64,000 nucleotides of DNA from Cyanobium sp. FGCU6 (lineage in GTDB: Bacteria; Cyanobacteriota; Cyanobacteriia; PCC-6307; Cyanobiaceae), in contig JANWUR010000005.1 of the NCBI GenBank assembly GCA_024958655.1, positions 113,489 to 177,488 on the forward strand. Direction: 5' to 3'. The notes below the pieces were generated by a model. The model made no database searches. It had not been told where the DNA came from and was given only the letters and a program-made list of their open reading frames with translations. The stretch's first letter is position 1, and each line of letters begins with the position of its first letter. Positions 2,871 to 30,024 of this stretch are shown here, in pieces. The position numbers and the translations under genes were made by a program.

Positions 2871-3599
2871 ATGAGTCCCACCATGGCCTGCGCGATCGCC
2901 AGCCTCACCGTGCTGGCACTCCTGCTGACGCTGATCGTGCTGCTTCGCCCCAGCCTGCTGGTGCGTGTCCTGCTGGCGCCCCTGCTGCCCGCTGTGATCT
3001 TCCGCGGCAACAGCCGGCGCCACGAGCTGGCGCTCACGATCGACGACGGTCCCAGCCCCGGCAGCGCCGAACTGCTGGCCCTGCTGCAGGAGCTGCAGGT
3101 GCCGGCCACCCTGTTCGTGATCAGCGGCCACCTCGATCGCGGCGATCCGGCCTTTCTGAAGCGGGCCCTCGCCGCTGGTCACGCCATCGGCCACCACATG
3201 CACGAAGACAGCGTTTCCGCCCGCCTCAGCCCCACCTCCTTCCGCCAGGCCTTCGATCAGGCCGCCGCCGAGCTGCAGGACGCCGCGGCGCCTCACAGGC
3301 TGCCCTTGCGATGGTTCCGGCCCGGTGGGGGCTGGATTGACTCCTCGATGTTGCGCCTGGTGTCCGAGCGGGGCTACCGGCTGGTGCTGGGGTCGATCTT
3401 CCCCTGGGACACCTTCCACCCGCCGCTGGCCTGGATGGCTTGGTTCGTGCTCAGCAACGCCCATCCCGGCGCGATTCTGGTTTTGCACGACCGGCCCGAC
3501 ACCCTGCCGGCCACGATGGAACTGCTGCGTCGGGTGGTGCCCGCGTTGCGTCAACGCGGCTACCGCTTCGTGAGCATGGATCGCCTTCTCACCAGCTGA
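2871..3599 (+). CDS. Polysaccharide deacetylase (NodB-homology domain)
   Basis: A 242-residue protein with an N-terminal hydrophobic segment (residues ~8-30, signal anchor) followed by a NodB fold. Motif 1 is LTIDDGPSPG (catalytic base and metal Asp), motif 2 is GHAIGHHMHEDS (metal His), motif 3 is FRPGGGW, and a late LHDRPDT carries the conserved His. The family removes N- or O-acetyl groups from extracellular polysaccharide or peptidoglycan. The start at 2871 is chosen for the hydrophobic N-terminus; 2883 (MACAIAS) is an alternative. A decayed second copy lies at 27560-27995. Downstream are remnants of a vapBC pair, so this is one copy of a duplicated deacetylase-vapBC block. Confidence 0.85.
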   Translation: MSPTMACAIASLTVLALLLTLIVLLRPSLLVRVLLAPLLPAVIFRGNSRRHELALTIDDGPSPGSAELLALLQELQVPATLFVISGHLDRGDPAFLKRALAAGHAIGHHMHEDSVSARLSPTSFRQAFDQAAAELQDAAAPHRLPLRWFRPGGGWIDSSMLRLVSERGYRLVLGSIFPWDTFHPPLAWMAWFVLSNAHPGAILVLHDRPDTLPATMELLRRVVPALRQRGYRFVSMDRLLTS

Positions 3600-5254
3600 G
3601 CCCCCCAGCCTCCGTCGCCGGGGAAGGCCAGTGGGCCTGGAGCCAGGCGATCAGAACCCCGCAGCGGCGCAATCCTGGCCGGCATAGGCCAGGGGCAACT
3701 GCTCACGTTCGGCGAGGGCGCGGCAAAGGGCCGCGCCCGGCGAGCTGCCGCAGCTGGGCGAAGGCTGACGTGGAGGCTGGGTTGAGCTGGCGATATCGCT
3801 GCTGGCCCCATGGCGGGATCGCACCCAACGCGGCGAGTCGCCTGCGGCGTCTCAGCGCCAGGATCGATCCAGGGTCGTCCATCATTCGGCGCGCCAAAAC
3901 AGGTTGGATGCCAGTCATCGGCGCACCACTGCCACACATTGCCGTGCATGTCATGCAGGCCCCAGGCGTTAGCGGGAAACATCCCCACCGGCGTGGTCTG
4001 CTCCCGGTACTTACCCTTAGGACCATCGGCATAGGTGTCGTTAGCGACATAGTTGGCCAACTCCGGGCTGATCGTTTCACCGCAGGAGAATGGCGTGCTC
4101 TCCCCGGCTCGGCAGGCGTATTCCCATTGCGCCTCGCTCGGCAGGCTGCAACGCAGGCCACTACCAACGGGCAGCAAAGTCTCAACCCGCCGACAGAACT
4201 CCATGGCCTCGTGCCAGCTCACCTGCTCCACCGGCCGCTGCTCGGTTTTGCTCTCGCCCGGTAGCAGAGCGAAACGGCCGTGAGGACCCTTTTTCTCTCC
4301 CTGCGGTTGGAAATAGGAGGGATTCGCCGGCAGTTGCCGTTGCCAACGCTCCCCAAGCGGCGGCACCAGCCGCGCCACCGCCCGCCACTGGGCCTGGGTG
4401 ATCGGCGTTTGGCCCAGGCAGAACCCCGCCAACCGCACCCGGTGCTGGGGGCCTTCGCTGTCGCTGCGCTCCAGCTCATCCGGCGGCGAGCCCATCACAA
4501 ACTCGCCGCCAGGAATCCACAGCAGCGGGAGGCTGATCTCCTCGCCCAGCGGCAGCAACGCTCGCTCCAGCCGCAGCGATCGCCGCTCCACCCTCCAGCC
4601 CTCGCCCTGGCGGCGCAGCCGGGCTGTTTCCAGGTCGTGGGTTTCGGTGGGCAGGGCGTGGCTGGCGGCAGAGGCTTCTCGCTGAGGTGCACCGGCAGTG
4701 GTGGCAGCCGGCTTCTCGCGAACGGGTGGCTGGCGCACCGGCACGGTCGGCACGCTCGCCTCAGCCGGATCAGCCAGGAAGGAGGGCCGGCCCAGGGGCG
4801 GTTTGCGGAAGCGGGGCTGATCATGCAGCTCTCGCAGCAGTTCCTCCAGTCGCTCGCCGTAGAGCCTGTCGTCGCGGAAGTCGAGCCAAAGGCGAGGGCC
4901 GAGAAAATCCGGCAGCAGCGGGTCGTTGGGGTTGTCGCGCACCAGGGGGATGAACTTCACCGTGTCGATGGCGCGGGCCACCTGGCTGGTCACGATCAGT
5001 CCCTCGTAGCCGGCGCCGCCCTTGCGTTGCTCCGCCTTGCTCACATACGTGCTGGTGCACACCAGCAACACCCGATCCGCCCGGCGGATCCCGGCCGCCA
5101 TGAAGGCCACCACATCAGCGCCGGCCTTCAGATCCCACTGATCGAGCGTGGCGTCCACTCCGCCATGGCGCAGGTCTTCCGCCAGCTTGCGCACCCACGC
5201 CTTGTGGGCAACGGAGTCGTGGGAATAGGAGAGGAACACCGAGGGGTTCGTCAT
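3560..5254 (-). CDS. SEFIR-FGE fusion protein with amputated C-terminus
   Basis: 564 residues from ATG 5254 (the upstream in-frame ATG at 5281 precedes the conserved start). Residues ~5-145 are a SEFIR/TIR-like domain (VFLSYSHDS, TLDQWDLKAGAD, GAGYEG). Residues ~235-475 are an FGE-sulfatase (C-type-lectin-like) domain with GEFVMGSPPDE, QTPITQAQWRAV, SEAQWEYACRAGE and LHDMHGNVWQW. From about ETPQATRR onward the expected LLRGGSW...VGFRVVC ending (the DGR variable repeat in paralogues) is missing. The reading frame instead runs through a degenerate palindrome and vapC debris, antisense to the end of the deacetylase gene. The FGE half is almost the same protein as in the TIR-FGE gene at 11330-12844, so the N-terminal effector has been swapped. 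It may still be expressed but without its diversified ligand face. Confidence 0.75.
   Translation of the reverse strand: MTNPSVFLSYSHDSVAHKAWVRKLAEDLRHGGVDATLDQWDLKAGADVVAFMAAGIRRADRVLLVCTSTYVSKAEQRKGGAGYEGLIVTSQVARAIDTVKFIPLVRDNPNDPLLPDFLGPRLWLDFRDDRLYGERLEELLRELHDQPRFRKPPLGRPSFLADPAEASVPTVPVRQPPVREKPAATTAGAPQREASAASHALPTETHDLETARLRRQGEGWRVERRSLRLERALLPLGEEISLPLLWIPGGEFVMGSPPDELERSDSEGPQHRVRLAGFCLGQTPITQAQWRAVARLVPPLGERWQRQLPANPSYFQPQGEKKGPHGRFALLPGESKTEQRPVEQVSWHEAMEFCRRVETLLPVGSGLRCSLPSEAQWEYACRAGESTPFSCGETISPELANYVANDTYADGPKGKYREQTTPVGMFPANAWGLHDMHGNVWQWCADDWHPTCFGAPNDGRPWIDPGAETPQATRRVGCDPAMGPAAISPAQPSLHVSLRPAAAARRARPFAAPSPNVSSCPWPMPARIAPLRGSDRLAPGPLAFPGDGGWGAQLVRRRSMLTKR
3610..3790 (-). 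pseudogene. Remnant of vapB-vapC pair
   Basis: The stretch around 3655-3720 matches the 3' end of the intact vapC at 27962-28333 (on the minus strand it reads ...LPLAYAGQDF-like). It then jumps to pieces matching the vapB gene and its upstream region at about 28370, 28505 and 28685. The intact locus lies just after a decayed deacetylase; here an intact deacetylase is followed by decayed vapBC. Several internal deletions leave no functional toxin or antitoxin. Confidence 0.6.
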
Positions 5255-5289
5255 GCACGCTCCTGCCGCGCTGGCGCACACACCGGCAC

Positions 5290-5430
5290 CCGTTCAGGGC
5301 GCTCCCGCTGATGAACACAGGCCGGCGATCGGGGGCTGGCTGGGGCACGTTCCGCGCTGGCCGTCTTCGCGAGAACCATCGTGGAAGGCGTGAGGCGCGG
5401 GCGATGCCGAGCTGCCGGCGACACCCCCCG
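5290..5430 (-). pseudogene. Remnant 5' end of a TIR gene upstream of the SEFIR gene
   Basis: On the minus strand this reads VPQPAPDRRPVFIS before losing the frame. It matches the GTG start and first codons (VPQPAPERRHVFIS) of the TIR-FGE gene at 12844, and the DNA further upstream is also shared with 12845-12925. The SEFIR gene therefore sits exactly where a TIR domain used to start, marking the 5' breakpoint of an effector-domain exchange. Confidence 0.6.
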
Positions 5431-5578
5431 CCTTGAATGGCTCTCAAGCCGCTCAACCCCCCGGTGTTGATGGGCATAGAGCTCCACCCCCCCCCCTCTG
5501 TGGGCTCACAACGCCCAAAACCTCCCCCCTTGATGGGCTCCTCAAGGCCCAAACCCCCTACCTTGAAGCGCTGATCGA
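5430..5578. repeat. Tandem G-run/hairpin repeat block, copy 1
   Basis: Four to five degenerate units of roughly 30-36 bp. Each has a run of 5-9 G (minus strand) followed by a small stem of the type TTGA...TCAA or GGGC...GCCC, e.g. CTTGAatggctcTCAAG and TTGATGGGCTCCTCAAGG. The block lies between a minus-strand SEFIR/TIR-FGE gene and a plus-strand AAA/DUF4143 gene, and a near copy occupies the same position at 12915-13040. A single weaker unit lies at 28745-28785. It could be a divergent-promoter element or just repetitive sequence. Confidence 0.6.
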
Positions 5579-5586
5579 AATCACGG

Positions 5587-5865
5587 ATGCGCGACGACGA
5601 GCTGCGGCGCCTGCTGTCTGACGCCAATCCTGGTGGGCCGCGGCGGCGGCTGGATGAGCCAGGAGGATCTGCAGGCCCATCTGTTGGCGGGTCGCGCCGG
5701 CTGGGACGATCGAATCGAAATGGGTGGACCAGGGCTGGCGCCTCGAGACGCTGGTGCTCGAAGGCCGCTACGGCCGCGGCGTGATGGCCACCAAATCAAT
5801 CCTCGATCTCAGCCATCCCAGCTGGGCGATCCCGGTGCCGCTATTGGCCTGCCTGCTGGGGTAAG
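5587..5865 (+). pseudogene. Internally deleted remnant of AAA/DUF4143 ATPase
   Basis: It starts with MRDDELRRLLSDANP, identical to the intact ATPase at 13052. It then jumps to the SQEDLQAHLLAGRAGW segment (intact residues ~170) and again to the C-terminal IESKWVDQGWR...GRYGRG segment, ending ...ACLLG-stop at the same place. At least two internal deletions reduce 1473 nt to about 280 nt and break the frame. The 3' end abuts a half palindrome, which is fused to the end of the TIR-FGE gene below. Confidence 0.8.
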
Positions 5866-7491
5866 GCCCCAGGGCGGCGAGGCGCCGCGCAGCAGCCGAT
5901 TAGCTCCACTCATTTCACTTTCTGAATCAACCCAGGCTGTGCCATCTGAAGGAGCCCCTGCATAGCTGGCATGCCAATGATCCAGGCACCACTCCCACAC
6001 GTTGCCGTGCATGTCTTGCAGGCCCCAGGCGTTGGCGGCGAACATCCCCACCGGTGTGGTCTGCTCTCGGTAGACCCCTTTCGGACCATCACTATACGTG
6101 TAGTTACCAACATAATTGGCTAAATCCGTCGTGATGGTGGCACCAAAAGCAAAGGGCGTGGTGGATCCCGCCCGGCAGGCATATTCCCATTGGGCCTCGC
6201 TTGGCAGGGTGTAATAGCGGCCCGTGCGTTGGCTCAAGCGCTTGCAAAACTCCATCGCCTCACGCCAGCTCACCTGCTCCACCGGCCGCTGATCGCTGTC
6301 GGTCTTGTCGCGGAAGCGCGAGGGATTGGTCTGCATCACCGCCCGCCACTGGGCCTGGGTGATGGGTGCCTGGCTGATGCGGAAGGAAGCCAGCCGCACC
6401 TCATGTTGAGGGCCTTCATCTTCAGATCTCTCCGGCTCGCTGGCGGGGGATCCCATGCGAAAACGCCCCGCTGGAACCACGATCATCCGCAGGGTGCTGC
6501 CATTGCCCAGGGGTTGATCCACCGCCTGCACGGAAATGGTGCGGCTGCGCACCTGCCAGCCGCCCGCTTGCCGCTCCAGCCAACCCTGGTTGACATCAAT
6601 GGACGAGGGCGGCAGAGCTTTCGATCCCTGCCTCACCCTGCCGATGCCCACGGCCGCCAGCGGCACCGCAGCGGCGATGACCAACAGCTGGCGGCGGCTG
6701 AGGCGGGGGAGCTGGGGCGGCTCCGGCCGGGTGAACCAGCCGGGCAGATTGGGCTGCCAGGCCAGCCCTCCCCCCTCGCCCCCCGAGGCGCTGCGCACCT
6801 TGCGGGTCTGGGCGCGCTCAGTTGCGGCCCGCTGGCGTTGCTCGCTGAGCTGCTGCTGGCGCTGCCGTTCAGCCGCCTCGGCGGCCAGTCGCTCCTGTTG
6901 GCGCGTCCTGGCCGCTTCCTCAGCCCTCTGGCGTTCCGCCGCGGCGGCCGCTTGCCGCTCCTGCAGCTCCAGCCGTTGCCGGGCCTGTTGCTCCTCCAAC
7001 TCCCGCCGCCGCGCGCGCTCCTCCGCCTGCCGCAGAGCATCGTGAACCGCCTCGGCGATGCGCACCAAGGCGTGGCGTTGCTGATGTGGCTCCATTGCAT
7101 CGAGGGTGTGCTCTGGCGCCAGCACCGCCTGGTAGGCATGGATCGGCGTGTGCCGCACCAGACTGGCGCTCAGGGGCACCCAGAGGATCGTCACCCCCTC
7201 GGCATCCGCCGCCCGCAACAGCGCCGGCACCTCCTTCCCCATCACAAACTCCGAGGCCAGAAAATCGGCGCTCACCAACAGCAGCGCCACCCGGGCCCGA
7301 GCCAACGCGGTTTCGATTTCCGCCTGCCACTTGGCGCCGGGTTCGATCTGGCTGTCGTCCCAGAGCTGCAGGCTGTTGCCTTCCTGCCACAACAGGGGTG
7401 CCATCACCTGGCGGATCCGCTCCACCCAGGCCCGATCGACATGGCTGTAGCTGATGAACACATGCCGGCGCTCGGGGGCGGGTGGGGGCAC
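5809..7491 (-). CDS. TIR-coiled-coil-TM-FGE protein with amputated C-terminus
   Basis: 560 residues from GTG 7491, the same GTG start used by the paralogues. Residues ~8-145 are a TIR domain (HVFISYSHVDRAW, LWDDSQIEPGAKW, putative catalytic Glu in SEFVMGKEV). A long R/E/Q/A coiled coil follows (~155-240), then one hydrophobic span (LLVIAAAVPLAAVGIG, ~268-285), then an FGE domain (~315-545; FRMGSPASEPER, QWEYACRAGSTTPF, LQDMHGNVWEWCLDHW). TIR domains of this kind often cleave NAD+; the FGE fold is a ligand-binding module. The protein ends NRLLRGASPPWG: immediately after LLRG the VR is gone and the frame runs into a half palindrome and the antisense 3' end of the ATPase remnant. It appears to be a VR-less former DGR target. 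Confidence 0.8.
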   Translation of the reverse strand: MPPPAPERRHVFISYSHVDRAWVERIRQVMAPLLWQEGNSLQLWDDSQIEPGAKWQAEIETALARARVALLLVSADFLASEFVMGKEVPALLRAADAEGVTILWVPLSASLVRHTPIHAYQAVLAPEHTLDAMEPHQQRHALVRIAEAVHDALRQAEERARRRELEEQQARQRLELQERQAAAAAERQRAEEAARTRQQERLAAEAAERQRQQQLSEQRQRAATERAQTRKVRSASGGEGGGLAWQPNLPGWFTRPEPPQLPRLSRRQLLVIAAAVPLAAVGIGRVRQGSKALPPSSIDVNQGWLERQAGGWQVRSRTISVQAVDQPLGNGSTLRMIVVPAGRFRMGSPASEPERSEDEGPQHEVRLASFRISQAPITQAQWRAVMQTNPSRFRDKTDSDQRPVEQVSWREAMEFCKRLSQRTGRYYTLPSEAQWEYACRAGSTTPFAFGATITTDLANYVGNYTYSDGPKGVYREQTTPVGMFAANAWGLQDMHGNVWEWCLDHWHASYAGAPSDGTAWVDSESEMSGANRLLRGASPPWGLTPAGRPIAAPGSPSWDG

Positions 7492-8899: not shown

Positions 8900-9220
8900 A
8901 CGGGGCCGGCTCTACCTCTGCCCCCGCAACCGCAGCTTCGGCGATGGCAAAGCGCGCCCGGTGGTGGTGATCTCGCCGGATGCCGCCACCCACCACGGTC
9001 CACGCCGATCAGCTGCAGGGCCCGCTTGGCCGGCTCACCTCTGCCGAGCTGACGGCGATCGCCGCCAGCGTGATCCAAGCCTTTGATCTGCAAGGCCTCG
9101 AGCCGTGGCAGCTTGACCCTGAAGCCTCAGGCGCCGCTGGCGGCACCGCAGCGCTGGGATGCCATCTCGGCTATCAGATCTGCAGCGCGGCTGCTTCCGT
9201 TGAAAGCACCAATGATTCGA
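8892..9220 (+). pseudogene. mazF-like toxin with 134-bp deletion, copy 1
   Basis: Starts MAERGRLYLCPRNRSF, like the intact copy at 10780. It loses the segment between two CCACGGTC direct repeats (equivalent to 10881-11015 in copy 2). The deletion is 134 bp and shifts the frame, so the toxin is truncated by a premature stop at 9086. The rest of the homologous sequence continues to the palindrome at 9221. Confidence 0.8.
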
Positions 9221-9335
9221 GGCGCCTATGGCGCCAGGGGAAAACAGCCAACAGCCGCGATCCAACAGCCAACAGACAGAGTCAAGAAACAGCCAGTGTT
9301 GAGGGATTGATGGATGAAGCGTTGAGGGAAGGATC
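9221..9335. repeat. VR 3'-flank repeat with GGCGCC palindrome, copy 1
   Basis: On the plus strand: palindrome GGCGCC-TAT-GGCGCC at 9221-9235, then about 100 bp with repeated CAACAGCC-type motifs and the conserved AGTGTTGAGGGATTGATGGA stretch, up to the end of the VR. The same block follows the three intact VRs (11243, 14540, 18207). In the orientation of the VR genes it lies immediately downstream of the VR. Confidence 0.85.
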
Positions 9336-9386
9336 CTGGGGGAGGCAGACCACACGAAAACCGACGTTGTTGTTCCAGGAGCCGCC
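9336..9386 (-). pseudogene. Collapsed VR remnant (DGR target)
   Basis: On the minus strand it reads GGSWNNNVGFRVVCLPQ then DPSLNA. The outer parts of the TR/VR are present, but everything between the two AAC-AAC-AAC runs is missing, as expected for deletion between those 9-bp direct repeats. Upstream FGE coding sequence is gone: 9387-9539 shows only short matches and no supported gene. The retained AAC triplet equals the TR, so this VR carried unmutated adenines there. Confidence 0.75.
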
Positions 9387-9539
9387 GTGGCAGGCAGTAC
9401 TGGAGCCGGAGGAATCAGAGGGCATGGGGCGGGGCGCACATCGGGGGGCACAGCCTGCCAACCGCCACCCCCGCCATCTTGACCGTGTTCTAATCAAACA
9501 TCATGATGCACGTCACACGATCAGGCGCGATCCTTAGCC

Positions 9540-10787: not shown

Positions 10788-11325
10788 ACGGGGCCGGCTC
10801 TACCTCTGGCCCCGCAACCGCAGCTTCGGCGACAGCAAAGCCCGACCGGTGGTGGTGATCTCGCCGGATGCCGCCACCCGCCACGGTCGGCGCTGGGTGG
10901 TGCTTCCCCTCAGCACCGTGAGCGACCTGGCCAGCAACCCTCTGGCCTATCGCCTGGCACCAACGGCGACCAACGGGCTGCGCCAGGCCAGTTTTGTGAT
11001 GACCTGGCTGCCCACCACGGTCCACGCCGATCAGCTGCAGGGCCCGCTCGGCCGGCTCACCTCTGCCGAGCTGACGGCGATCGCTGCCAGCGTGATCCAA
11101 GCCCTTGATCTGCAAGGCCTCGAGCCGTGGCAGCTTGACCCTGAAGCCTCAGGCGCCGCTGGCGGCACCGCAGCGCTGAGATGCCATCTCGGCTATCAGA
11201 TCTGCAGCGCGGCTGCTTCCGGTGAAAGCGCCAATGATTCGAGGCGCCTGCGGCGCCAGGGGGCAACAGCCAATAGAAGCAATCCAACAGCCAGGGTTAA
11301 GCAACAGCCAGTGTTGAGGGATTGA
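10780..11325 (+). CDS. MazF/PemK-like mRNA interferase toxin, copy 2
   Basis: From ATG 10780: MAERGRLYLWPRNRSFGDSKARPVVVISPD, the MazF/PemK beta-barrel start with the conserved RP.VVIS strand. About 115 residues cover the MazF fold. The ORF then continues to residue 181 through the palindrome (RRLRRQG at 11243-11257) into the VR 3'-flank repeat. That tail is probably read-through of repeat DNA that replaced the native stop. It is convergent with the TIR-FGE-VR gene ending at 11330, only 4 nt away. Confidence 0.78.
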   Translation: MAERGRLYLWPRNRSFGDSKARPVVVISPDAATRHGRRWVVLPLSTVSDLASNPLAYRLAPTATNGLRQASFVMTWLPTTVHADQLQGPLGRLTSAELTAIAASVIQALDLQGLEPWQLDPEASGAAGGTAALRCHLGYQICSAAASGESANDSRRLRRQGATANRSNPTARVKQQPVLRD

Positions 11326-11350
11326 TGGATTAAGCGTTGAGGGAAGGGCC
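11243..11350. repeat. VR 3'-flank repeat with GGCGCC palindrome, copy 2
   Basis: Palindrome GGCGCC-TGC-GGCGCC at 11243-11257, then the CAACAGCC-rich flank leading to the VR of the TIR-FGE gene. Overlaps the end of the mazF-like ORF. Confidence 0.88.
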
Positions 11351-12844
11351 CTGGGGGACGCAGACCACACGGAACCCGACGAGGCTGTAGGCATAGCACG
11401 GCAGGAAGTGGCTGCGGCGAGCCGAGCGGCAGTCCCAGGGGAAGTCGCCCCAGGAGCCGCCGCGCAGCAGCCTGAACTGTTGATCCTCAACCTCAGAATC
11501 CTTGGCAGCGGGGTTGATCCAGGCGCGGCCATCAAAGGGAGCGTCGTCATAGGTCTCGTGCCAATGATCCAGGCACCATTCCCATACATTGCCGTGCATG
11601 TCGTGCAGGCCCCAGCCATTGGCAGGAAAGATCCACACCGGCATAGTCTGCTTTCGATACTCACCCTTTGGGCCATCGGCATAGGTGTGGTCTCCGTCAT
11701 AGTTGGCCAACTCCGGCGTGATCGTTTCACCGCAGGAGAATGGCGTGCTCTCGCCGGCTCGGCAGGCGTATTCCCACTGCGCCTCGCTCGGCAGGGTGCA
11801 ACGCAGACCACTGCCATCCGGCAGCAAGGTGTCGAGCCGCCGACAGAACTCCATGGCCTCGTGCCAGCTCACCTGCTCCACCGGCCGCTGGTCAGTGTTG
11901 CTTTCCGCCGGCAGCAGAGCGAAACAGCCGTAAGAAGCATTTTTCTCTCCCTGCGGTTGGAAAGTGGAGGGATTCGCCGGCAACTGCCGTTGCCAACGCT
12001 GCCCCAGCGGTGGCACCAGCCGCGCCACCGCCCGCCACTGGGCCTGGGTGATCGGCGTCTGGCCCAGCCAGAACCCCGCCAGCCGCACCCGGTGCTGGGG
12101 TCCTTCGCTGTCGTGGCGCTCCAGCTCATCCGGCGGCGAGCCCATCACAAACTCGCCGCCAGGAATCCACAGCAGCGGCAGGTTGATCCCCCCGCCCAGC
12201 TCCACCAGCGCCCGCTCCACCCGCAGCGGTTGGCTCTCCACCCGCCAGCCCTCGCCCTGGCGCCGCAGCCGGGCTGTTTCCAGCTCGTGGGTTTCGGTGG
12301 GTAAGCCGTTGCTGGCCAGCTGGGCGGGCCGCAGGGCTTGGGGCAGATCGAGGGGCTGGGGCGAAGCCGCGGCCAAAGGCTGCCGCAACGCCTTGCGGAT
12401 CGCCAGGCCGATCGTCCTGAGCGCCTCCTTCCACTCCACCTCCGCCATCGCCTCCAGGTGGCGGTGCGGCGGCAGCACCGCCTGGTAGCTGTGGATCTCG
12501 GTTTCGTCCACGAAGCTGGGGCTGAGGCTCACCCACAACACCGGCACCCCGTCGGCCTCCGCCGCCGCCAGCAGCTGTGGCACCTCCTGACCCATCACGA
12601 ATTCGGAGGCCAGGAAGGCGTCGCTCACCAGCAGCAGCGCCACCTTCGCCTCCGCCAGCGCCCTTTCAATCTCCTCGCGCCACTTCATCCCCGCCTCGAT
12701 GCGGCTGTCGTCCCACAGCCGCAATTCCTGGCCGCTGCCGCGCAACAGCGGCGCCATCATCCGCCTCAGCCGCTCCACCCAGGCCCGATCGGCATGGCTG
12801 TAGCTGATGAACACATGCCGGCGCTCGGGGGCTGGCTGGGGCAC
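11330..12844 (-). CDS. TIR-FGE protein, DGR variable-repeat target
   Basis: 504 residues from GTG 12844 (VPQPAPERRHVFISYSH), the start shared with the other TIR paralogues. TIR domain ~8-145 (HADRAWVERLRR, LWDDSRIEAGMKW, putative catalytic Glu in SEFVMGQEV), linker ~150-215, FGE-sulfatase/C-type-lectin fold ~220-504 (GEFVMGSPPDELER, SEAQWEYACRAGES, LHDMHGNVWEWCLDHW). Residues 459-498 are the VR, ending ..LVGFRVVCVPQ, followed by GPSLNA-stop. TIR enzymes of this type commonly hydrolyse NAD+; the VR-bearing FGE fold should provide the diversified binding surface, so a sensor-effector role is inferred. Divergent from the AAA/DUF4143 gene and convergent with mazEF copy 2. Confidence 0.9.
   Translation of the reverse strand: MPQPAPERRHVFISYSHADRAWVERLRRMMAPLLRGSGQELRLWDDSRIEAGMKWREEIERALAEAKVALLLVSDAFLASEFVMGQEVPQLLAAAEADGVPVLWVSLSPSFVDETEIHSYQAVLPPHRHLEAMAEVEWKEALRTIGLAIRKALRQPLAAASPQPLDLPQALRPAQLASNGLPTETHELETARLRRQGEGWRVESQPLRVERALVELGGGINLPLLWIPGGEFVMGSPPDELERHDSEGPQHRVRLAGFWLGQTPITQAQWRAVARLVPPLGQRWQRQLPANPSTFQPQGEKNASYGCFALLPAESNTDQRPVEQVSWHEAMEFCRRLDTLLPDGSGLRCTLPSEAQWEYACRAGESTPFSCGETITPELANYDGDHTYADGPKGEYRKQTMPVWIFPANGWGLHDMHGNVWEWCLDHWHETYDDAPFDGRAWINPAAKDSEVEDQQFRLLRGGSWGDFPWDCRSARRSHFLPCYAYSLVGFRVVCVPQGPSLNA
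11351..11470 (-). other. DGR variable repeat VR2
   Basis: 120-bp VR aligned codon by codon to the TR at 15856-15975. I count 20 differences, 18 of them at TR adenines (e.g. AAC to GGC, GAC, TTC; AGG to TGG; CAG to CTG). The two exceptions are GGC to TGC inside the VR and CTC to GTC near its end. The flanking LLRGGSW and VGFRVVC codons are unchanged. Confidence 0.95.
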
Positions 12845-12914
12845 GCGCGGCTGCCGCTGGGTTCGCTGCGGCGATGGTGGCAGGGGAGCAGCGAAGGCGA
12901 TGCCGAGCTGCCGG

Positions 12915-13040
12915 CGACACCCCCCGCCTTGAATGGCCCTCAAGCCGCTCAACCCCCCGGTGTTGATGGGCACAGATCTCCAGAACCTCCCCCCTTGATG
13001 GGCTCCTCAAGGCCAAAACCCCCTACCTTGAAGCGCTGAT
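12915..13040. repeat. Tandem G-run/hairpin repeat block, copy 2
   Basis: Near copy of 5430-5578, one unit shorter, in the same divergent position between the TIR-FGE gene and the AAA/DUF4143 gene. Contains CTTGAATGGCCCTCAAG and TTGATGGGCTCCTCAAGG stems separated by C-runs. Confidence 0.6.
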
Positions 13041-13051
13041 CGGAATCTCGG

Positions 13052-14524
13052 ATGCGCGACGACGAGCTGCGGCGTCTGCTGTCTGACGCCAATCCCTGGT
13101 GGGCCGCGGCGGCGGCTGGGCGCGATCCCACCGCCTGGCAGGAGGGCAACCGGACGCTGCTGGAGCGGGGCCGCCACGATCTGGGCCACCGCAGCGGCGT
13201 GCTGCGCGACATCGCCAGCGAGCCTCTGGATGGCTCCCTGGTGATCCTCACCGGCCCCCGCCGGGCGGGCAAAACCGTGGCCCTGCTCGAGGCGGCGGCA
13301 ACCCTCTGCGGCCGGGCCGACCTCGATCCCCGCCAGGTGATTCATGTGCCCTGCGATGGCCTGGCCGCCCGTGAACTGCGGCGGGTGTTCAGCCTGGCCC
13401 GCAGCCTCACCCGCTCGGTGGATCTGAGCGGTCCCCGGCCCCGGGTGTGGCTGTTTGATGAGGTGTCGGGCATCAGCGGCTGGACCGCGGCCTTCAAGGC
13501 GGCTCGGGATGGCACGTCCTTCGGGGACGACACGGTGGTGGCCACCGGCAGCCGCTGGGTGAGCCAGGAGGATCTGCAGGCCCATCTGTTGGCGGGTCGC
13601 GCCGGCTGGGGCGAACGGCGGCGGGTGCGGCAGCTGTTGCCGCTGACCTTCCGCGAGGTGCTGGCCTGCACCCATCCCGAGCTGACCCTGCCGCCACGGG
13701 TCCATCCGGCCCGACTGCAGGAGCCGGCGGTGGCCGCTGCCCTGGAAGCCCTGGCCTTCTCGGTGGATGCCTACGACCTGGCCTGGCAGGACTACCTCTG
13801 CAGCGGTGGCTTCCCCCGCGCCGTGGCCGAACACCACCGCACCGGTGCCGTGGGCCTGGCCTATCAGCGCGACCTGCTGGCCTGGTTGCGGGCCGATGTG
13901 GATGCCGAGGCGCCGCTGGAATCGGTGCCGCTTCTGCTCTCCACGTTGATGGAGCGGATGACGAGCCCCCTGGATGTGCGCAAGAGCGCCGCCATCGCCG
14001 GCTATGGCAGCCGCGAGGCCTTTGCCCTGCGCTTGCGCCGGCTGGTGAACAGCCAGGCGCTGCTGCGCTGCCCGCACCGGCTCGACAACGGCCAGGCCCT
14101 GGCCCGCGGCCAGGCCAAGCACTACCTGCTCGATCCCCTGCTGGCCTGGTTGCCGGGCACCCTGCGGGCGGGGCTGTCGGCGCCGGCGATGCCGGCCTTG
14201 AGCGAAATGGCCCTGGCGGTGGCCCTGGCCCGGGCGGTGGATCAGCTGGAGGAGGGCCGCTGGCTTGCCGACGACACCATCGGCTACAGCCGCACCGATT
14301 CAGGTCGCGAGATCGACTTCAGCCCGGTGCCCGTGCCCAGCCCAGCCGGTGCCGCCTTCACCACGCCGATCGAATCGAAATGGGTGGACCAGGGCTGGCG
14401 ACAGGAGGCGCTGGTGCTCGAAGGCCGCTACGGCCGCGGCGTGATGGCCACCAAATCAATCCTCGATCTCAGCCATCCCAGCTGGGCGATCCCGGTGCCG
14501 CTATTGGCCTGCCTGCTGGGGTAG
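13052..14524 (+). CDS. AAA ATPase, DUF4143 family
   Basis: 490 residues. The N-terminal P-loop domain has Walker A ILTGPRRAGKTV (~residue 70) and a Walker B-like RVWLFDEVS (~132). The C-terminal half resembles DUF4143: CSGGFPRAVAEHH, a winged-helix-like GYGSREAFALRLRRL, and a late restriction-endonuclease-like fold with ESKWVDQGW. Function is not established for the family. It is paired divergently with the TIR-FGE gene and convergently with the FGE-VR gene. A deleted copy at 5587 shows that the whole TIR-repeat-ATPase arrangement was duplicated. Confidence 0.8.
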   Translation: MRDDELRRLLSDANPWWAAAAAGRDPTAWQEGNRTLLERGRHDLGHRSGVLRDIASEPLDGSLVILTGPRRAGKTVALLEAAATLCGRADLDPRQVIHVPCDGLAARELRRVFSLARSLTRSVDLSGPRPRVWLFDEVSGISGWTAAFKAARDGTSFGDDTVVATGSRWVSQEDLQAHLLAGRAGWGERRRVRQLLPLTFREVLACTHPELTLPPRVHPARLQEPAVAAALEALAFSVDAYDLAWQDYLCSGGFPRAVAEHHRTGAVGLAYQRDLLAWLRADVDAEAPLESVPLLLSTLMERMTSPLDVRKSAAIAGYGSREAFALRLRRLVNSQALLRCPHRLDNGQALARGQAKHYLLDPLLAWLPGTLRAGLSAPAMPALSEMALAVALARAVDQLEEGRWLADDTIGYSRTDSGREIDFSPVPVPSPAGAAFTTPIESKWVDQGWRQEALVLEGRYGRGVMATKSILDLSHPSWAIPVPLLACLLG

Positions 14525-14539
14525 GACCCAGGGCGGCGA

Positions 14540-14662
14540 GGCGCCTGCGGCGCCGGGGGGGGAACGGCCGCAAACCAACAGCCAACAGCCGCAATCCAAC
14601 AGCCAGGGTTAAGAAACAGCCAGTGTTGAGGGATTGATGGATTAAGCGTTAAGGGAAGGGTC
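14540..14662. repeat. VR 3'-flank repeat with GGCGCC palindrome, copy 3
   Basis: Palindrome GGCGCC-TGC-GGCGCC at 14540-14554 just after the ATPase stop, followed by the CAACAGCC-rich flank and the shared GTGTTGAGGGATTGATGGA stretch up to the VR. Confidence 0.88.
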
Positions 14663-15679
14663 CTGGGGGAGGCAGACCACACGGAACCCGACGAGGTCGT
14701 CGGCATTGCCTGGCCGGCCGTGGAAGCGGTGAGCCGAGCGGCAGTGCCTGGGGCCGAAGTTCCAGGAGCCGCCGCGCAGCAGCCTGTCATCTTCATCACT
14801 CACATAGTCGTTCCGTTCCTTATTTGTGGCTGTCTTCTTCCGCTCAGGCGTGTTTTCCCAGGCGCTTCCATTCGATGGTGCTCCCTCGTAGCTGTCATGC
14901 CAGTGATCCTGGCACCATTCCCACACATTACCGTGCATATCGTGCAGGCCCCAGGCATTGGCTGGGAACATCCCAACCGGTGTGGTCTGCTCCCGGTAGG
15001 GCCCCTTAGGGCCATCGGCATAGGTGTAGCTACCGTTGTAGTTGGCCAGGCCTGGGGTGATCGTGGCCCCAAAGTGAAAGGGCGTGGAGGAGCCTGCACG
15101 GCAGGCGTATTCCCACTGGGCCTCGCTAGGGAGCGTGTAATGGCGACCTGTGCGTTGGCTCAGGCGGTTGCAGAACTCCCTGGCGTCGTGCCAGCTCACC
15201 TGCTCCACAGGGTAGAGATCGGTGTTGGGTATGCCATCGAGGACGACAGATTCATCTGACGCACTGTCTGAGGCTTTTCTCATTTTCTGCTTCTCACCAT
15301 CAAACCAGGCAGGATTGGCTTTCAGGTCGCGGTTCCACGTCTCGCCAGGCTGTTCCATCCATTCCGCCACCGCCCGCCACTGGGCCTGTGTGATCGGCGT
15401 CTGCCCCATGAAGAAGCCCTGCAGCTGCACCAGATGCTGCGGTCCTTCGCGATCCTGCCGATCCAGCTCCTTCTCCGGCGATCCAATCCAGAACCGGCCT
15501 GGTGGGATCCAGAGCATGGTGAGGTCGGTTTTTTTCTGCTCCTGCGCAAAAACATCCCCCTGATCAAACACACCCTCGCCGAACACCTGATCATCCGATC
15601 GCAGTTGCTCCCGAAACCCCTGCACCTGCCGCGGCTGGCGCAGCAGAAAGGTGGCGGTGCGGGTCGGGGTGGCGGTCAT
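14642..15679 (-). CDS. FGE-sulfatase (C-type-lectin fold) protein, DGR target next to the template
   Basis: 345 residues, with essentially only an FGE domain after a ~45-residue N-terminus: TMLWIPPGRFWIGSPEKE, MGQTPITQAQWRAV, SEAQWEYACRAGSST, LHDMHGNVWEWCQDHW. Residues 300-339 are the VR, then DPSLNA-stop. No effector domain is attached, so it may be the archetypal cis target or pair with separate effectors. The stretch before the VR (ERKKTATNKERNDYVSDEDD) is shared with the vWA-WD40-FGE target. It lies on the same strand downstream of Avd-RT-TR and may be co-transcribed. Confidence 0.88.
   Translation of the reverse strand: MTATPTRTATFLLRQPRQVQGFREQLRSDDQVFGEGVFDQGDVFAQEQKKTDLTMLWIPPGRFWIGSPEKELDRQDREGPQHLVQLQGFFMGQTPITQAQWRAVAEWMEQPGETWNRDLKANPAWFDGEKQKMRKASDSASDESVVLDGIPNTDLYPVEQVSWHDAREFCNRLSQRTGRHYTLPSEAQWEYACRAGSSTPFHFGATITPGLANYNGSYTYADGPKGPYREQTTPVGMFPANAWGLHDMHGNVWEWCQDHWHDSYEGAPSNGSAWENTPERKKTATNKERNDYVSDEDDRLLRGGSWNFGPRHCRSAHRFHGRPGNADDLVGFRVVCLPQDPSLNA
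14663..14782 (-). other. DGR variable repeat VR1
   Basis: 120 bp aligned to the TR: 14 differences, all at TR adenines (AAC to TTC, GGC, CAC, GAC, CTC; CAG to CGG), no other change. Product segment W-NFG-PRH-CRSAHR-FHG-RPGNA-DDL-VGFRVVC. This is the cleanest evidence in the window for adenine-directed retrohoming. Confidence 0.97.
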
Positions 15680-15855
15680 GGCTGCGGCGAAAAGAAGGGC
15701 ACGGATCCGGCGCCGATGGCGGTGCCATGGACGGTCGGGGCACCCTCCGGCGCTGTGCGGATCAGCAGGCGGAGCCGGCCGATCACGGGAGCGGGTCTGG
15801 ACCCTTCCGGTGCGCCCGCTGGAATCCCTTCCAACGGTTCAGACGGCGAAGGGTG

Positions 15856-15975
15856 CTGGGGGAGGCAGACCACACGGAACCCGACGTTGTTGTTGGCATT
15901 GCCTGGCTGGTTGTGGTTGCGGTGAGCCGAGCGGCAGTTCCTGGGGTTGTTGTTCCAGGAGCCGCCGCGCAGCAG
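15856..15975 (-). ncRNA. DGR template repeat (TR)
   Basis: On the minus strand the 120 bp would encode LLRGGSW-NNN-PRN-CRSAHR-NHN-QPGNA-NNN-VGFRVVCLPQ. Diversifiable positions are AAC/AAT/CAG codons, as in other DGR templates. It begins 19 nt after the RT stop. It is not itself at the end of an FGE gene: no FGE coding sequence precedes it. Past the repeat, TR and VR agree in ACCCTTC but differ on both sides (CAGCACCCTTCG in TR, CAGGACCCTTCC in VR), comparable to the IMH*/IMH difference that gives homing its direction. The exact ends of the template RNA cannot be seen. Confidence 0.95.
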
Positions 15976-15994
15976 CTGCGGGACCCGCCCGGCC

Positions 15995-17065
15995 TCAGGG
16001 TAGGTCGACCGCATAGGCCAGGCCCGCAAACAGGCGGCGCCGCAGGCGCCAGGTGTGGCCGTGGGCCAGGTGGGCGTTCCAGCTGAGCAGGCTGATGCGG
16101 GCGGCAGAGGCGGGTAGCACTCCCGCCAGCACCGCACGGTGCTGCAACCTCAGGCGGCGGCGCCCGCGGCGCAGGTTGTGGTTGCGCACCCGCAGCCGGC
16201 CGGGCCGCACCACGAAGCCCACAAAGCTGGCGCCCTCGCGGCAGCGGCGGATCTGGGTTTTCACCGGATGGGCACGCAGGCGCAGGGCGGCCAGCTCCTG
16301 CTCCATCAGGGCCCGGGCCCGGTGCAGCGGCCCCGGGTGATCGGCGAACAGGGCCAGGTCATCCACGTAGCGCAGATAGGCCCAAATCCCCGGCAGGGCG
16401 CTGAGGCTGTGGTCGAGGGCGTTGAGGTGGAGGTTGGCCAGGAACTGGCTGGTGAGGTTGCCGATCGGCAGGCCGCGGGGCCGCTGCAGGGGCGTGAGCA
16501 GGGTGTCGCCGGGGAAGGCATCAAGGGCCGGGCCGTGGCTGGCGCCGTTGGCCAGGATCTGATCGAGCAGCCAGAGGGTGCCGGGGCAGGCGATGGCGGC
16601 CGAGAGCTGGGCCCGCAGGATGGTGAGATCAATGCTGGGGAAATAGAGGCGGATGTCGGCCTGGAGAACCCAGCGATGGCGGGCCGCCGCGGCGGAGAAG
16701 CGGCGCAGGGCGCGGTGGCTGCCGTAGCCGATGCGGTTGGCATGGCTGCCGCGGTGGAAGCGGCGCTCGAGCGGCGGCACGATCGCGGCGCAGAGGGCGT
16801 GGTGCACCACCCGATCGCGGTAGGGGGCGGCGCTGATCAGGCGCGGCTTGGGATCGCGGATGCTGAACTGGCGGTAGGGGCCGGGGCGATAGGAGAAGCT
16901 GCGCAGCTCCTCCTGCAGGCCCAGCAGCTCGGCTTCGAGGTTGGCGTTGAAGGCCAGCACCGCCGGCCGGTAGCGCTTGCCCCGCTGGGCGCGGCGGGCG
17001 GCGGCCTGCAGGCTGGCGAAGCTGGTGAGGCGCGGGTAGAGGTGGCGCAGGGGCGGCACGCTCAT
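15995..17065 (-). CDS. DGR reverse transcriptase
   Basis: 356 residues, a typical length for DGR RTs. Motifs: KPRLISAAPYRDRVVHHAL (RT1-2), VLQADIRLYFPSID (RT3, catalytic Asp), RGLPIGNLTSQFLANLHL (RT4, ~residue 200; the IGNLTSQ form is characteristic of DGR RTs), YLRYVDDLALF (RT5, catalytic YVDD ~230) and FVGFVVRPGR. It copies the TR RNA with adenine misincorporation and delivers the cDNA to VRs. It starts 4 nt after the Avd stop and is followed at once by the TR, giving the order Avd-RT-TR. No intron-maturase or endonuclease domain, so it is not a group II intron RT. Confidence 0.96.
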   Translation of the reverse strand: MSVPPLRHLYPRLTSFASLQAAARRAQRGKRYRPAVLAFNANLEAELLGLQEELRSFSYRPGPYRQFSIRDPKPRLISAAPYRDRVVHHALCAAIVPPLERRFHRGSHANRIGYGSHRALRRFSAAAARHRWVLQADIRLYFPSIDLTILRAQLSAAIACPGTLWLLDQILANGASHGPALDAFPGDTLLTPLQRPRGLPIGNLTSQFLANLHLNALDHSLSALPGIWAYLRYVDDLALFADHPGPLHRARALMEQELAALRLRAHPVKTQIRRCREGASFVGFVVRPGRLRVRNHNLRRGRRRLRLQHRAVLAGVLPASAARISLLSWNAHLAHGHTWRLRRRLFAGLAYAVDLP

Positions 17066-17069
17066 CGGC

Positions 17070-17504
17070 TCAGGCGGGCCGGCGCTGCTGGGAGAGCCAG
17101 GCGCTGTGCTGGCGGCCGATGGCGGTGATCAGGCGGCTGGCGTGCTCGTAGCGGCGCAGGTCGATCAGCTGGAAATCATGGAGCAGGCGCGTTTGCAGCT
17201 GGATCAGCTGGATGCGGCCGCGCAGGGGTTCGAGGATCGCCAGCCGCTCGCGCTGGAAGCGGGCCAGGGCCAGCTGCTCCAGCAACTCATAGAGGTTGGC
17301 CACCAGCCGGTCGCCCAGGCCGTGGCGGTGCAGCCGCGGCAGGCGGTGCAGGATCGGAATGAACCAGCGGATCAGCTCCAGGGTGGCCTCCTGGATCGGC
17401 AGGTCGGCGGTGGAGGGGGCGGAGGAGCTGGAGCTGGGTGCATCAGAGGGCATGGGGCAGGGCGCAGAGCTGGCACAGCGAGGAGTCGGTGCCATGGTCA
17501 GCAA
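17070..17504 (-). CDS. avd: Accessory variability determinant (Avd-like four-helix protein)
   Basis: 144 residues (shorter starts at Met4 or Met18 are possible; the Ser/Pro-rich N-terminus looks disordered). The body is all-helical and basic, with ELIRWFIPILHRLPRLHRHGLGDRL, the Avd/23S-IVP-family pattern W-x3-L-x3-P-R-x6-LGDR. Avd forms a pentameric barrel that binds the RT and template RNA and is needed for retrohoming. Its position directly upstream of the RT supports the call. Confidence 0.88.
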   Translation of the reverse strand: MLTMAPTPRCASSAPCPMPSDAPSSSSSAPSTADLPIQEATLELIRWFIPILHRLPRLHRHGLGDRLVANLYELLEQLALARFQRERLAILEPLRGRIQLIQLQTRLLHDFQLIDLRRYEHASRLITAIGRQHSAWLSQQRRPA

Positions 17505-18206: not shown

Positions 18207-18340
18207 GGCGCCTGCGGCGCCAATGGAGGCAGCCAACAACCGCATGGCCAAGCAAGCAATCAACAGCCACAAGCCAACAACCAGGGTTAAGAAACAGCCA
18301 GTGTTGAGGGATTGATGGATTAAGAGTTAAGGGAAGGGCC
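18207..18340. repeat. VR 3'-flank repeat with GGCGCC palindrome, copy 4
   Basis: Palindrome GGCGCC-TGC-GGCGCC at 18207-18221, then the CAACAGCC-rich flank (slightly longer here, about 119 bp) up to the VR of the vWA-WD40-FGE gene. Confidence 0.88.
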
Positions 18341-21300
18341 CTGGGGGAGGCAGACCACACGGATCCCGACGTCGTTGCTGGCATAGCCTGGCCGGTTGCG
18401 GCTGCGGTGAGCCGAGCGGCAGTCACCGGGGTTGTAGCTCCAGGAGCCGCCGCGCAGCAGCCTGCGTTGTTCATCACTCACATTGTCGTTCTGTTCCTTG
18501 TTTGCGGCTGTATTTTTTCGCTCCGGCATGTTTTCCCAGGCGCTGCCATCCTTTGGTGCTCCCTCATAAGACTCATGCCAGTGATCCTGGCACCATTCCC
18601 GCACGTTGCCGTGCATGTCATGCAGACCCCAGGCGCTGGCGGGGAACATCCCCACAGGAGTGGTCTGTTGTCGATACTCTCCCTTCGGACCGTTCGCATA
18701 GGTGGAGCTGCCGTCGTAGTTGGCTAGCTCCGGTGTGATCGTGGCCCCAAAATGAAAGGACGTGGTCGTACCCGCTCGACAGGCGTATTCCCACTGCGCC
18801 TCGCTGGGGAGGGTGTAATAGCGGCCTGTGCGTTGGCTCAGACGGTTGCAAAATTCGCTTGCATCCAGCCAGCTCACATTGTCGACGGGGCGCTGATCAC
18901 TGGTGGTTTCTCCCTCCAGCAGGGAAAAACGGCCGTCGCCGCCGTAACCACTGGCCTTTTGATTACTGCGCGGCTGAAAGAACGACGGCTCCGGGTCCAA
19001 CTCCCGCCCCCAGCTCTCGCCAGGCCGCTGCTTCCAGAGGGCCACCTGCCGCCACTGGGCCTGGGTGATCGGCGTTTGACTCATGAAGAAGCTCTCCAGC
19101 GTCACCTCATGCTGGGGGCCTTCGTCATCAAATCTCTCGGGTTCATCGGGGGGGGAGCCCATCAGAAAGCTACCCGCCGGGATCTCCACGAGGGTGAGAG
19201 CCAGAGGATCGGGCCGTTCTACGACAGCACCCAAGGGGAGGTGGTCGCGCTGCAGCGGTTCGTGAAAACCCCAGGCCGTTGCTTCCTGCGAAGAAAAACC
19301 CACCACTGGATCGGGTCTTGGCAAGGGATCGGCGATCGCCTGCCACACCAGGATGCGCCCGTCTTCGGCTGAGGCGATGAGGCGGCCATCGGCAAGTAGC
19401 CCCAGAGCTTGCACAGGCTCACTGTTGCCCTCCAGGATCTGTTGGCAATCACCGTTGGCCAAATTCCAGATCCGGATCGTTCCATCACTGGAGGCGCTCG
19501 CCAGCAAACCATTCGCCAGCATCAGCAGAGCCCTGATCCCGTCCTGATGGCCCTGGAAATCGGCCAAACAGGCACCACTGGAAGGATCCCAGAGGCGGAT
19601 TGTGTGATCCTCGGAGCCCGAGGCGAGGCGGCCATCAGAAAGTACCGCCAATGTATTCACCGCCCCCTGATGCCCCTCAAGCATTGCCTCGGCGAGCCCT
19701 GTAGAGGAATCCCAGAAGCGGATCGTTCCATCGTCATTGCCGAAAGACAGGCGGCCATCAGGGAGCACCGCCAGGGCGTTCACGCCGCTGTCCCGCCCCA
19801 GCACGGCCGACGACCAGGAACCACCAGCCGTCTCCCTGACCTGGATGGTGGAATCACGGGAACCCGAAGCCAGGCGGCCATCAGGGAACACTGCCAGGGC
19901 CGTCACCCGGTCCTGATGCTCCTCGATCACCCCCAGGCAGGAGCCGCTGGCGAGATCCCAAAGCCGGATGGTGCGATCGCCAGAGCCCGAGGCCAGGCGC
20001 CCGTCTGGAAGCAGCGCAAGGGCGAACACCCCATCCCGATGCCCCCGCAACACTGGCGAGACGGAGCCACTGGCAGGGTCCCAGAGGCGGATGCCGCCAT
20101 CGGCCGATCCCGCAGCGAGGCGACCATCCGGTAAACCGATCAGTGCCGTCACAGCGGCAGCAGCGCTCGGCTCCCTCAACACCATCTGGGGCGTGAAGGA
20201 ACTTGCAACAGCACGGCCGGGGCTGAACTGCGAAGCCACGCGTGCCGTGAGGAAAGTGATCCGTTGCAGCTCCAGCTGCACCAACCAGGCTGCGGTGATG
20301 GAGACCAGCTCGGTCTGCGGCACATCCACAACGGCGGCTGTTTCGAAAGCCACAGGCTGGAACTTCATCGAGGCGGGCCAGAGCGGCGTGGGGCCCCTGC
20401 CCCCTGCCGCACGCAACTGCCGCGCAATCTCACGGAAGGGCTGGCCTGGCAGGCGATCAAGCCTGTCCGCCGCGAGATTGGCGAAATGCGCCAACCCGGA
20501 AGCGTCCACGCTTTCCGCTGCTCTCGGATCAGAGAGCAGGGTCTCAAAGGTGGGGCCTCTCCCCTGGCGTGCCAGGCGACGTTCCACCACATCGGTGATC
20601 GATTGAATCACCGCCACTCGTGCCCTGGGCTCCAACTGCGGCTCCAGTAGGGTCTGAACGGCAGGCAGGAGCTCAAACTGCACCGCATCAGGGCCTATGG
20701 CCGCCTGCCCCTCTCGTCGGCACACAAGTCCGCTGACCAGAACCTCTGCCAGTGGCAAGGGGTCGCTCAGGTCAGGTAGTTCCGCAGCCATCAAGAGCCG
20801 CAGCACCGGCAACGTAAGCAGAGGTGCTGCGGCCATCAGCAATATCAGACGCTGGGCCTCGGGGCTTGCCTGTTGGCGAAACGTCTGCCAGAGAGATTCC
20901 GCCTCAGCAGCAGGATCATCAGAAGAACGTGGAGACGTTACGGGAGAGATTGGAATCTGTTGGCGGTCGGCAACAGGCATCACAGTCCCGCCAGTGCGGG
21001 CTAAGCCATCACCCATCACCAGCGCACCCCAAGGTGCCAGATCGCGTGGATTCAGTGATAGCACCGGCAGCTTCAGCCCTGTGGGCATGGGTAGCTGTGA
21101 AGACCTCAGCCGCCGCCTTGGGTCAAGAGTGGAGACAGCAACCGCTTGGTAGCCACTGTTTGGCCCCAGACCCAGCCTGTTGCTCAGTGTGACTGCAATT
21201 CCACGTCGCAGGGCTGTACGCACGCGATAGCGGAGCGGCAAGGTATGCAGCACCGCCAGGGGTTGCCGCTCAGCAATCTGTTCAAGCCAGCGCGCCATTG

Positions 21301-28572: not shown

Positions 28573-28871
28573 TCCACCCCATGGGTATGGAAGCTGATTC
28601 TACCGGGGCTTGCCGCCCTGATCAGAGGCCATTGGGGCACCCGGAATCGGGGCAGCCGGAACGGAACATGGCTGGATCCGCAGGGAGAAGGCTGACGTGG
28701 CGGCTGGATTGAGCCCACAGCGGCAAGGCGCCTGCGGCCCCGCCGCCCTCGTTGGGCTCCCGAAGCCCAAAACCCCTACCTTGGAACTCTGATCTGATTC
28801 TGAGACCTCAGACTGAGAACTGTACCTCCTCCTCCCGTGCCCACGGCCCGAACAACTACATCGCCCTCACA
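28573..28871. other. Intergenic stretch with palindrome and hairpin remnants
   Basis: No supported gene. 28726-28740 is a degenerate half of the VR 3'-flank palindrome (AGGCGCCTGCGGCCCC). 28745-28785 has GGGCTCCCGAAGCCC and a CCCTACCTTGGAACTCTGA stretch like the end of the hairpin repeat blocks before the AAA/DUF4143 genes. It looks like debris of the same cassette arrangement. Confidence 0.5.
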
Positions 28872-29956: not shown

Positions 29957-30024
29957 GCGCGGCTGCCGCTGGGTTCGCTGCGGCGATGGTGGCAGGTGTG
30001 CAGGTCTTCACGATCCGTGCCACT

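Follow-up and report, generated by a model that had tools for sequence, protein, structure and literature searches.

One FGE-type gene in the 64,000-nucleotide stretch analysed here (the window), FGE-B, has in our judgement quite likely lost its variable region (VR) through a single 228-bp deletion running from a 3' hairpin to the start of the VR, with a second gene, FGE-A, probably shortened alike and a third, FGE-C, by another route.

The sister of FGE-B

The features at the truncated end of FGE-B are as follows.

5809-7491, minus strand: FGE-B, a TIR plus FGE-sulfatase-like gene, VR lost (translation; Pfam PF13676 and PF03781; VR-bearing sister)
5812-5883, minus strand: out-of-place tail of FGE-B, its last 24 codons (translation)
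5883-5886, no strand: deletion joint B, microhomology CGCC, 228 bp absent relative to G009:C185
5587-5863, plus strand: ATPase pseudogene copy, its 3' end abutting joint B, with internal deletions common to G009 and the window

We sought orthologs by a DNA search of 42 genomes of the genus (that of the window and 41 others), which returned a single close ortholog of FGE-B, G009:C185; the sister evidence is one allele, from a 6-kb MAG contig. The match falls into two blocks, query 320-941 at 97% on the gene side and 1-327 at 96% on the other side, which overlap by 8 query bases yet lie about 220 bases apart in G009:C185. Base-by-base alignment showed that G009:C185 keeps a full VR, the 3' region and the hairpin between the same flanks, and it carries the same ATPase pseudogene, in one block. 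The piece missing from the window measures 228 bp and extends from within the palindrome to 13 nt into the VR. It is flanked in G009:C185 by copies of CGCC at 4043 and 4271, and one copy is left at 5883-5886 in the window; a short direct repeat with one copy lost is the pattern of a microhomology deletion. The G009:C185 VR differs from the TR of the window at 16 of 26 adenines and at 1 of 94 other bases. Since these differences are adenine-specific, the sister gene is a real target of a diversity-generating retroelement (DGR), and since its VR and hairpin are intact, FGE-B once had a VR and then lost it. The counter-case raised by the first-pass annotation, relatives that never bore a VR, did not materialise, as the ortholog has a whole one.

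The FGE-B frame passes from ...RLLRG to the palindrome remnant and on, in frame, to the 3' end of the broken ATPase gene copy. Translation of 5809-7491 thereby bears out the earlier description of LLRG running directly into half a palindrome and the ATPase 3' end. That description erred in giving GCGGCG as the overlap at the joint: the shared bases are CGCC at 5883-5886 (GGCG on the gene strand). Comparison of the window with itself matched 5707-5886, comprising the ATPase 3' end and palindrome, to 14367-14545 at 96.7% identity. Only 13 nt of VR are left in FGE-B, which today does not have the VR at its 3' end that characterises a DGR target.

The PF03781 match in FGE-B covers positions 4-220 of 255. 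Lacking the end of the FGE domain, the product probably does not function, and because that end was removed along with the VR, we infer that the deletion disarms the receptor instead of freezing a variant. FGE-B is still a single open frame. Against G009, its dN/dS comes to 0.43 overall (first half 0.26, second half 0.76), on 49 differences that are too few to separate decay from constraint and too coarse for dating the loss of the VR. The rest of the gene may thus be without visible decay, though most of the divergence time may predate the deletion.

The DGR and its hairpin

The DGR of the window looks complete, with a reverse transcriptase (RT), Avd, a TR and several FGE-type targets.

15848-15976, minus strand: TR (template repeat), without a VR-type hairpin 3' (window self-comparison, VR/TR comparison)
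15995-17065, minus strand: DGR reverse transcriptase (PF00078, E 1.7e-14)
17070-17504, minus strand: Avd (NF033474 DivGenRetAVD, 84.3 bits, cut-off 80; PF22296)
14642-15679, minus strand: intact DGR target, FGE gene with VR (about 14655-14783)
14540-14554, minus strand: intact hairpin GGCGCC-GCA-GGCGCC, 3' of the VR of 14642-15679
11330-12973, minus strand: intact DGR target, TIR plus FGE with VR, the closest FGE-A paralog in the window (87%)
11243-11257, minus strand: intact hairpin 3' of the VR of 11330-12973
18320-22153, minus strand: intact DGR target, WD40 plus FGE with VR
18207-18221, minus strand: intact hairpin 3' of the VR of 18320-22153

The RT adjoins the TR, Avd is present and the VRs show adenine-specific differences: in six VRs (the three window targets, contigs C69 and C46, and the sister genome G009), 91 of 156 adenines differ from the TR, and 10 of 564 other bases do. 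An AlphaFold model of the FGE domain, built with 11 sequences, had a mean pLDDT of 56 and was poor over the VR. A search for RTs in the window's genome found them on C58 and C63 only. A TR-like copy lies about 300 bp after an FGE target at L142 (G000:C13, about 5400-5810), where a second, RT-less DGR may be present. At L085 (G009:C150, 7226-7600) one FGE gene seems to have two VR-like tips in tandem, in different frames.

All three VR-bearing window targets have the exact hairpin. More widely, a perfect GGCGCC-N3-GGCGCC hairpin lies 3' of 44 of 59 VR-like ends (found by protein pattern, with a few non-DGR FGE genes among them) versus 0 of 12 TRs, at a median distance of 116.5 nt after the GFRV codons (range 63-213). 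The 597 kb made up of the window and the fetched loci (52 sequences) contain 46 palindromes, 36 of which fall within 420 nt 3' of one of 53 VR-like motifs and 10 elsewhere; the Poisson chance of this linkage, taken from the density elsewhere, is negligible, although the loci were picked by FGE hits. Loops at the 36 linked palindromes read GCA (22), GTA (6), GAA (4) or otherwise (four). When VR modules were compared pairwise, 821 of the 1039 matches covering the VR end stopped before the hairpin and 218 reached it; 146 of the latter ended within 15 bases of the hairpin end, and 72 ran on.

The window's genome holds 8 GNA-loop copies, versus 0 for a backwards control: five after VRs, one in the RT 3' end and two (C41, C53) without a VR. 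For the C69 copy, GNA is read in the loop from the strand opposite that of the gene. The RT copy, at 16036-16050 and shortly ahead of the TR, matches the VR hairpin perfectly. We considered whether the palindrome might be a mere dispersed genome repeat and rejected this, as five of six exact GGCGCCTGCGGCGCC copies follow a VR. With up to 2 mismatches the palindrome is common, at 194+169 versus 66+61 for the reversed control. Of the 42 genus genomes, 34 contain the GNA pattern, some of them without an FGE match; one of these, G002, has six copies, five with the loop GGA, which is absent from the 36 VR loops. Another 21 GNA copies in the window's and other DGR-bearing genomes divide into 11 linked to a VR (8 by pattern, 3 by eye), 9 without a VR and 1 that is short upstream. 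The hairpin is not exclusive to VRs.

In a survey of 80 named loci, hairpins of at least 6 bp stood at 20 of 50 VR-like ends, some of which are TRs, versus 1.8 expected from simple shuffles; without 11 congener loci the figure was 9 of 35, with a GNA loop in 4 of the 9 and other stems such as TCGCGC. Energies of single-stranded DNA hairpins were not distinct from those of shuffles in 4 of 5 short pieces, one piece giving a z of -2.4. By eye, all 12 TRs are followed by a different hairpin of about 9 bp, its loop mostly GGGA (one mismatch in L087; about 15790-15830 in the window), with pairing-preserving stem changes in L131 and L089. We take it to resemble the structured spacer of DGR RNA.

For phage BPP-1, PMC3240598 describes a hairpin 3' of the VR that is required for efficient homing, with variable stem sequence and an invariant loop. 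The palindrome resembles that hairpin/cruciform in being a GC-rich inverted repeat 3' of the VR, and not of the TR, with a loop more conserved than the stem. It departs from the phage set in its stem (6 bp here, 7-10 bp there), its loop (3 nt GNA against 4 nt GRNA) and its spacing (63-213 nt after the VR GFRV codons against 4-34 bp after the VR). That the palindrome would be the DGR target hairpin of this family in this genus is strongly supported but not proven; the deletion in FGE-B thus broke a probable target hairpin as well.

Two further VR-less genes and the frequency of loss

Two other FGE genes in the window end without a VR.

3560-5281, minus strand: FGE-A, TIR plus FGE gene without VR, joint 3848/3849 (translation, paralog alignment, Pfam)
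3837-3851, minus strand: decayed hairpin of the DGR type, located at joint A, with one stem pair mismatched; GTCGCCTGCGGCGTC
28872-29237, minus strand: FGE-C, a VR-less, truncated piece of a chimeric FGE pseudogene
28727-28741, minus strand: hairpin copy near FGE-C, one mismatch; GGCGCCTGCGGCCCC

Over 3866-4666 FGE-A shares 87% identity with the VR-bearing gene 11330-12973, and down to window position 3849 it shares 85% with the C69 target. On the gene strand joint A reads GGCGCTGAGAC then GCCGCAGGCG, where the C69 paralog has GGCGCTGAGACTATGTCAAGG and then its VR; the jump leaves GGCGCTGAGAC at a point 10 nt short of where the C69 VR starts and enters the arm of the decayed hairpin. A close FGE-A ortholog was not found in G009 (best match 76%), so the loss of the VR in FGE-A is read from paralogs alone. 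The dN/dS of FGE-A against its paralog is 0.31. Sequence at the joint suggests that FGE-A probably underwent a separate deletion similar to that of FGE-B.

The FGE-C frame stops at 28872, about 130 bp from its hairpin copy, and a copy of the ATPase upstream region (28740-28801, 79% to 12986-13048) lies between the two. Its TIR half, 29275-30003, is out of the FGE-C frame and matches 12158-12891 at 93%. The break falls in the DHW codons, upstream of the VR start, and joins unrelated sequence. A joint of the type seen in A and B was ruled out for FGE-C by this upstream break and by the scrambled neighbours. FGE-C appears to have decayed by another route, in several steps, and it speaks against one common route for all three genes. 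Of the degenerate palindromes proposed at the VR-less ends of two other genes, that of FGE-A (3837-3851) is at the joint, while that of FGE-C is some way off the frame end. Repeated deletion between VR start and palindrome, the broader claim, is upheld for FGE-B by G009:C185, is likely for FGE-A from its paralogs and fails for FGE-C. The first-pass annotation also missed that the palindrome belongs regularly to the intact targets.

We counted by hand 72 FGE clusters in loci from the window's genome and 13 of the 41 searched congeners. Seven are at contig ends. A C-terminal tip is present in 61 of the remaining 65 and absent from 4, namely A, B and C, all in the window, and a G018:C63 fragment that is cut further upstream. 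With contig-end cases set aside, the same hand count found no further FGE gene in the fetched congener loci that ends at VR start plus hairpin, and among 300 sampled genomes of the family (a sample without G009) joint B was covered by the window's own genome only. VR loss is real but rare and is concentrated in the window's genome. The idea of tip loss as a recurring event therefore survives at most inside this genome, the fetched congener loci having no like ending.

An apparent fourth VR-less FGE gene at C69:32-580 was rejected, since the contig ends there at an IS-like insertion and the VR and hairpin half starts contig C46. The two ends, L140 (G000:C69) 1-60 and L141 (G000:C46) 1-60, look like two sides of one insertion-sequence hit in an FGE target, with an inverted shared end, TGATCAGCAACAAA, and a duplicated TGGACCAT. 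The window also holds a DGR relic at 9217-9470, in which a perfect-stem hairpin and 3' region accompany a TR/VR-like piece fused to avd-like sequence. The adenines of this piece are unmutated and it has an internal deletion between two AACAACAAC blocks; at 9320-9385 the TR-like piece is joined to the avd-like sequence near the 5' edge of a VR or TR. At L263 (G009:C246, 1016-2138), a likely ortholog of the 18320-22153 target, a VR and hairpin are fused to a piece of avd, apparently through a duplication or deletion with its joint at the VR 5' edge. L263 was by eye the one true VR-like tip lacking an FGE body; the remaining such candidates were dismissed as non-DGR FGE genes, contig ends, cases where the pattern missed the core motif, or chance matches.

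Mechanism, rival readings and meaning

The simplest account of these observations is a hairpin-promoted microhomology deletion. FGE-B was a DGR target, and the 228-bp deletion came after the split from the G009 lineage. Alignment with the sister shows the span of this deletion, from inside GGCGCC-GCA-GGCGCC, 3' of the VR, to 13 nt in the VR, with the 4-bp direct repeat CGCC as the joint. It took the VR with its 3' end, the presumed start of homing, and half of a hairpin whose role as the genus's DGR target-site hairpin is strongly supported but not proven, so that FGE-B would no longer be able to serve as a target. Slippage or end joining probably made the break, with the hairpin and the short repeats of the GC-rich VR start as favouring factors. 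We applied a uniform deletion model to the intact G009 locus, a post hoc test that takes no account of the preference for short deletions. Of 3214 possible junctions with 4 bp or more of microhomology, 6 join the hairpin to a point within 15 nt of the VR start; without the microhomology condition the figure is 339 of 551077. The result hints at hot spots and does not prove them.

The main rival on the role of the hairpin holds that the palindrome is an ordinary intrinsic terminator, unrelated to homing, and that the deletion fell there by chance. In 25 of 44 cases the hairpin has TTTT after it within 18 nt, so a terminator role is possible, and many copies read TCGATTTT after the hairpin. The wide occurrence of GNA copies in the genus, also in genomes without an FGE match such as G002, the 9 of 21 further copies without a VR, and the presence of a hairpin at just 9 of 35 VR-like ends outside the genus, 4 of them with a GNA loop, fit this reading too. 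However, 19 of the 44 have no such T run, the B-type flank among them; 5 of the 8 GNA copies in the window's genome follow VRs and none of 12 TRs has the hairpin; VR loops are GCA, GTA or GAA in 32 of 36 while those of G002 are GGA in 5 of 6; and outside the genus the 9 hairpins occupy a similar position with different stems. We therefore consider the terminator reading unlikely, though worth keeping in view. An assembly artefact, in which repeats of VR loci collapsed to a false joint, is hardly credible: FGE clusters do reach contig ends in 7 of 72 cases, but joint B shares 4 bp only and lies inside a 196-kb contig, and repeats usually end contigs and seldom give 4-bp joints.

The DGR might have made the deletions itself, an abortive retrohoming break at the hairpin and an unresolved VR 5' end being joined by repair. 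At joint A and at joint B alike, one side falls within 15 nt of the VR 5' edge and the other inside the 15-bp hairpin, the presumed limits of the homing unit, and two more rearrangements, the relic at 9320-9385 and the VR-to-avd fusion of G009:C246, break near a VR or TR 5' edge. The same break positions are explained by a GC-rich VR start with short repeats, 61 of the 65 FGE genes in the fetched loci that are not cut by a contig end retain the tip, and a literature search by title and abstract found no paper treating loss of a whole VR. PMC12875486 (2026) describes DGR-linked small insertions and deletions by RT slippage in AAC repeats. On balance we find a DGR origin of the deletions improbable. 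The general form of the idea, that DGR homing has a built-in failure in which breaks at the hairpin and VR 5' edge are sometimes joined and the whole homing unit excised, is a shade more doubtful still; if true, a DGR would gradually destroy its targets, and VR-less paralogs with a hairpin scar would remain. Selection for VR-less forms, with an optimal receptor frozen, or an unwanted one disarmed, by the loss of its diversifying parts, seems very improbable. Open frames are retained, with dN/dS of 0.31 and 0.43 for A and B as given above, and removal of diversification parts after selection is the subject of speculation in PMC7517822; but the VR was deleted together with the FGE domain end, where the Pfam match stops at 220 of 255, so that no variant was preserved.

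A hairpin-promoted microhomology deletion can be set against what is described for other DGRs. The cyanobacterial DGRs with C-type-lectin/FGE targets in PMC7517822 likewise have several remote targets with a VR-like part at the gene 3' end; here, unlike there, a target has been caught after VR loss with an intact sister allele at hand. In Thiohalocapsa PB-PSB1 (PMC10907252, 2024) DGR loci also lose functional parts in repeat-rich surroundings, but there MITE-like arrays replace the RT or TR, whereas here a target has lost its VR by deletion at a 15-bp hairpin.

Among the multi-VR genomes studied in PMC3521204, at least one VR-less paralog was found in every case but three. Such paralogs have hitherto been taken as stable, conserved 'ancestor' genes (PMC3521204), whereas here at least one is now shown to be a descendant that lost its VR. 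In this genus the GNA-loop hairpin is a simple marker for live or dead DGR targets, and it offers a concrete site for asking whether homing and target loss are linked.
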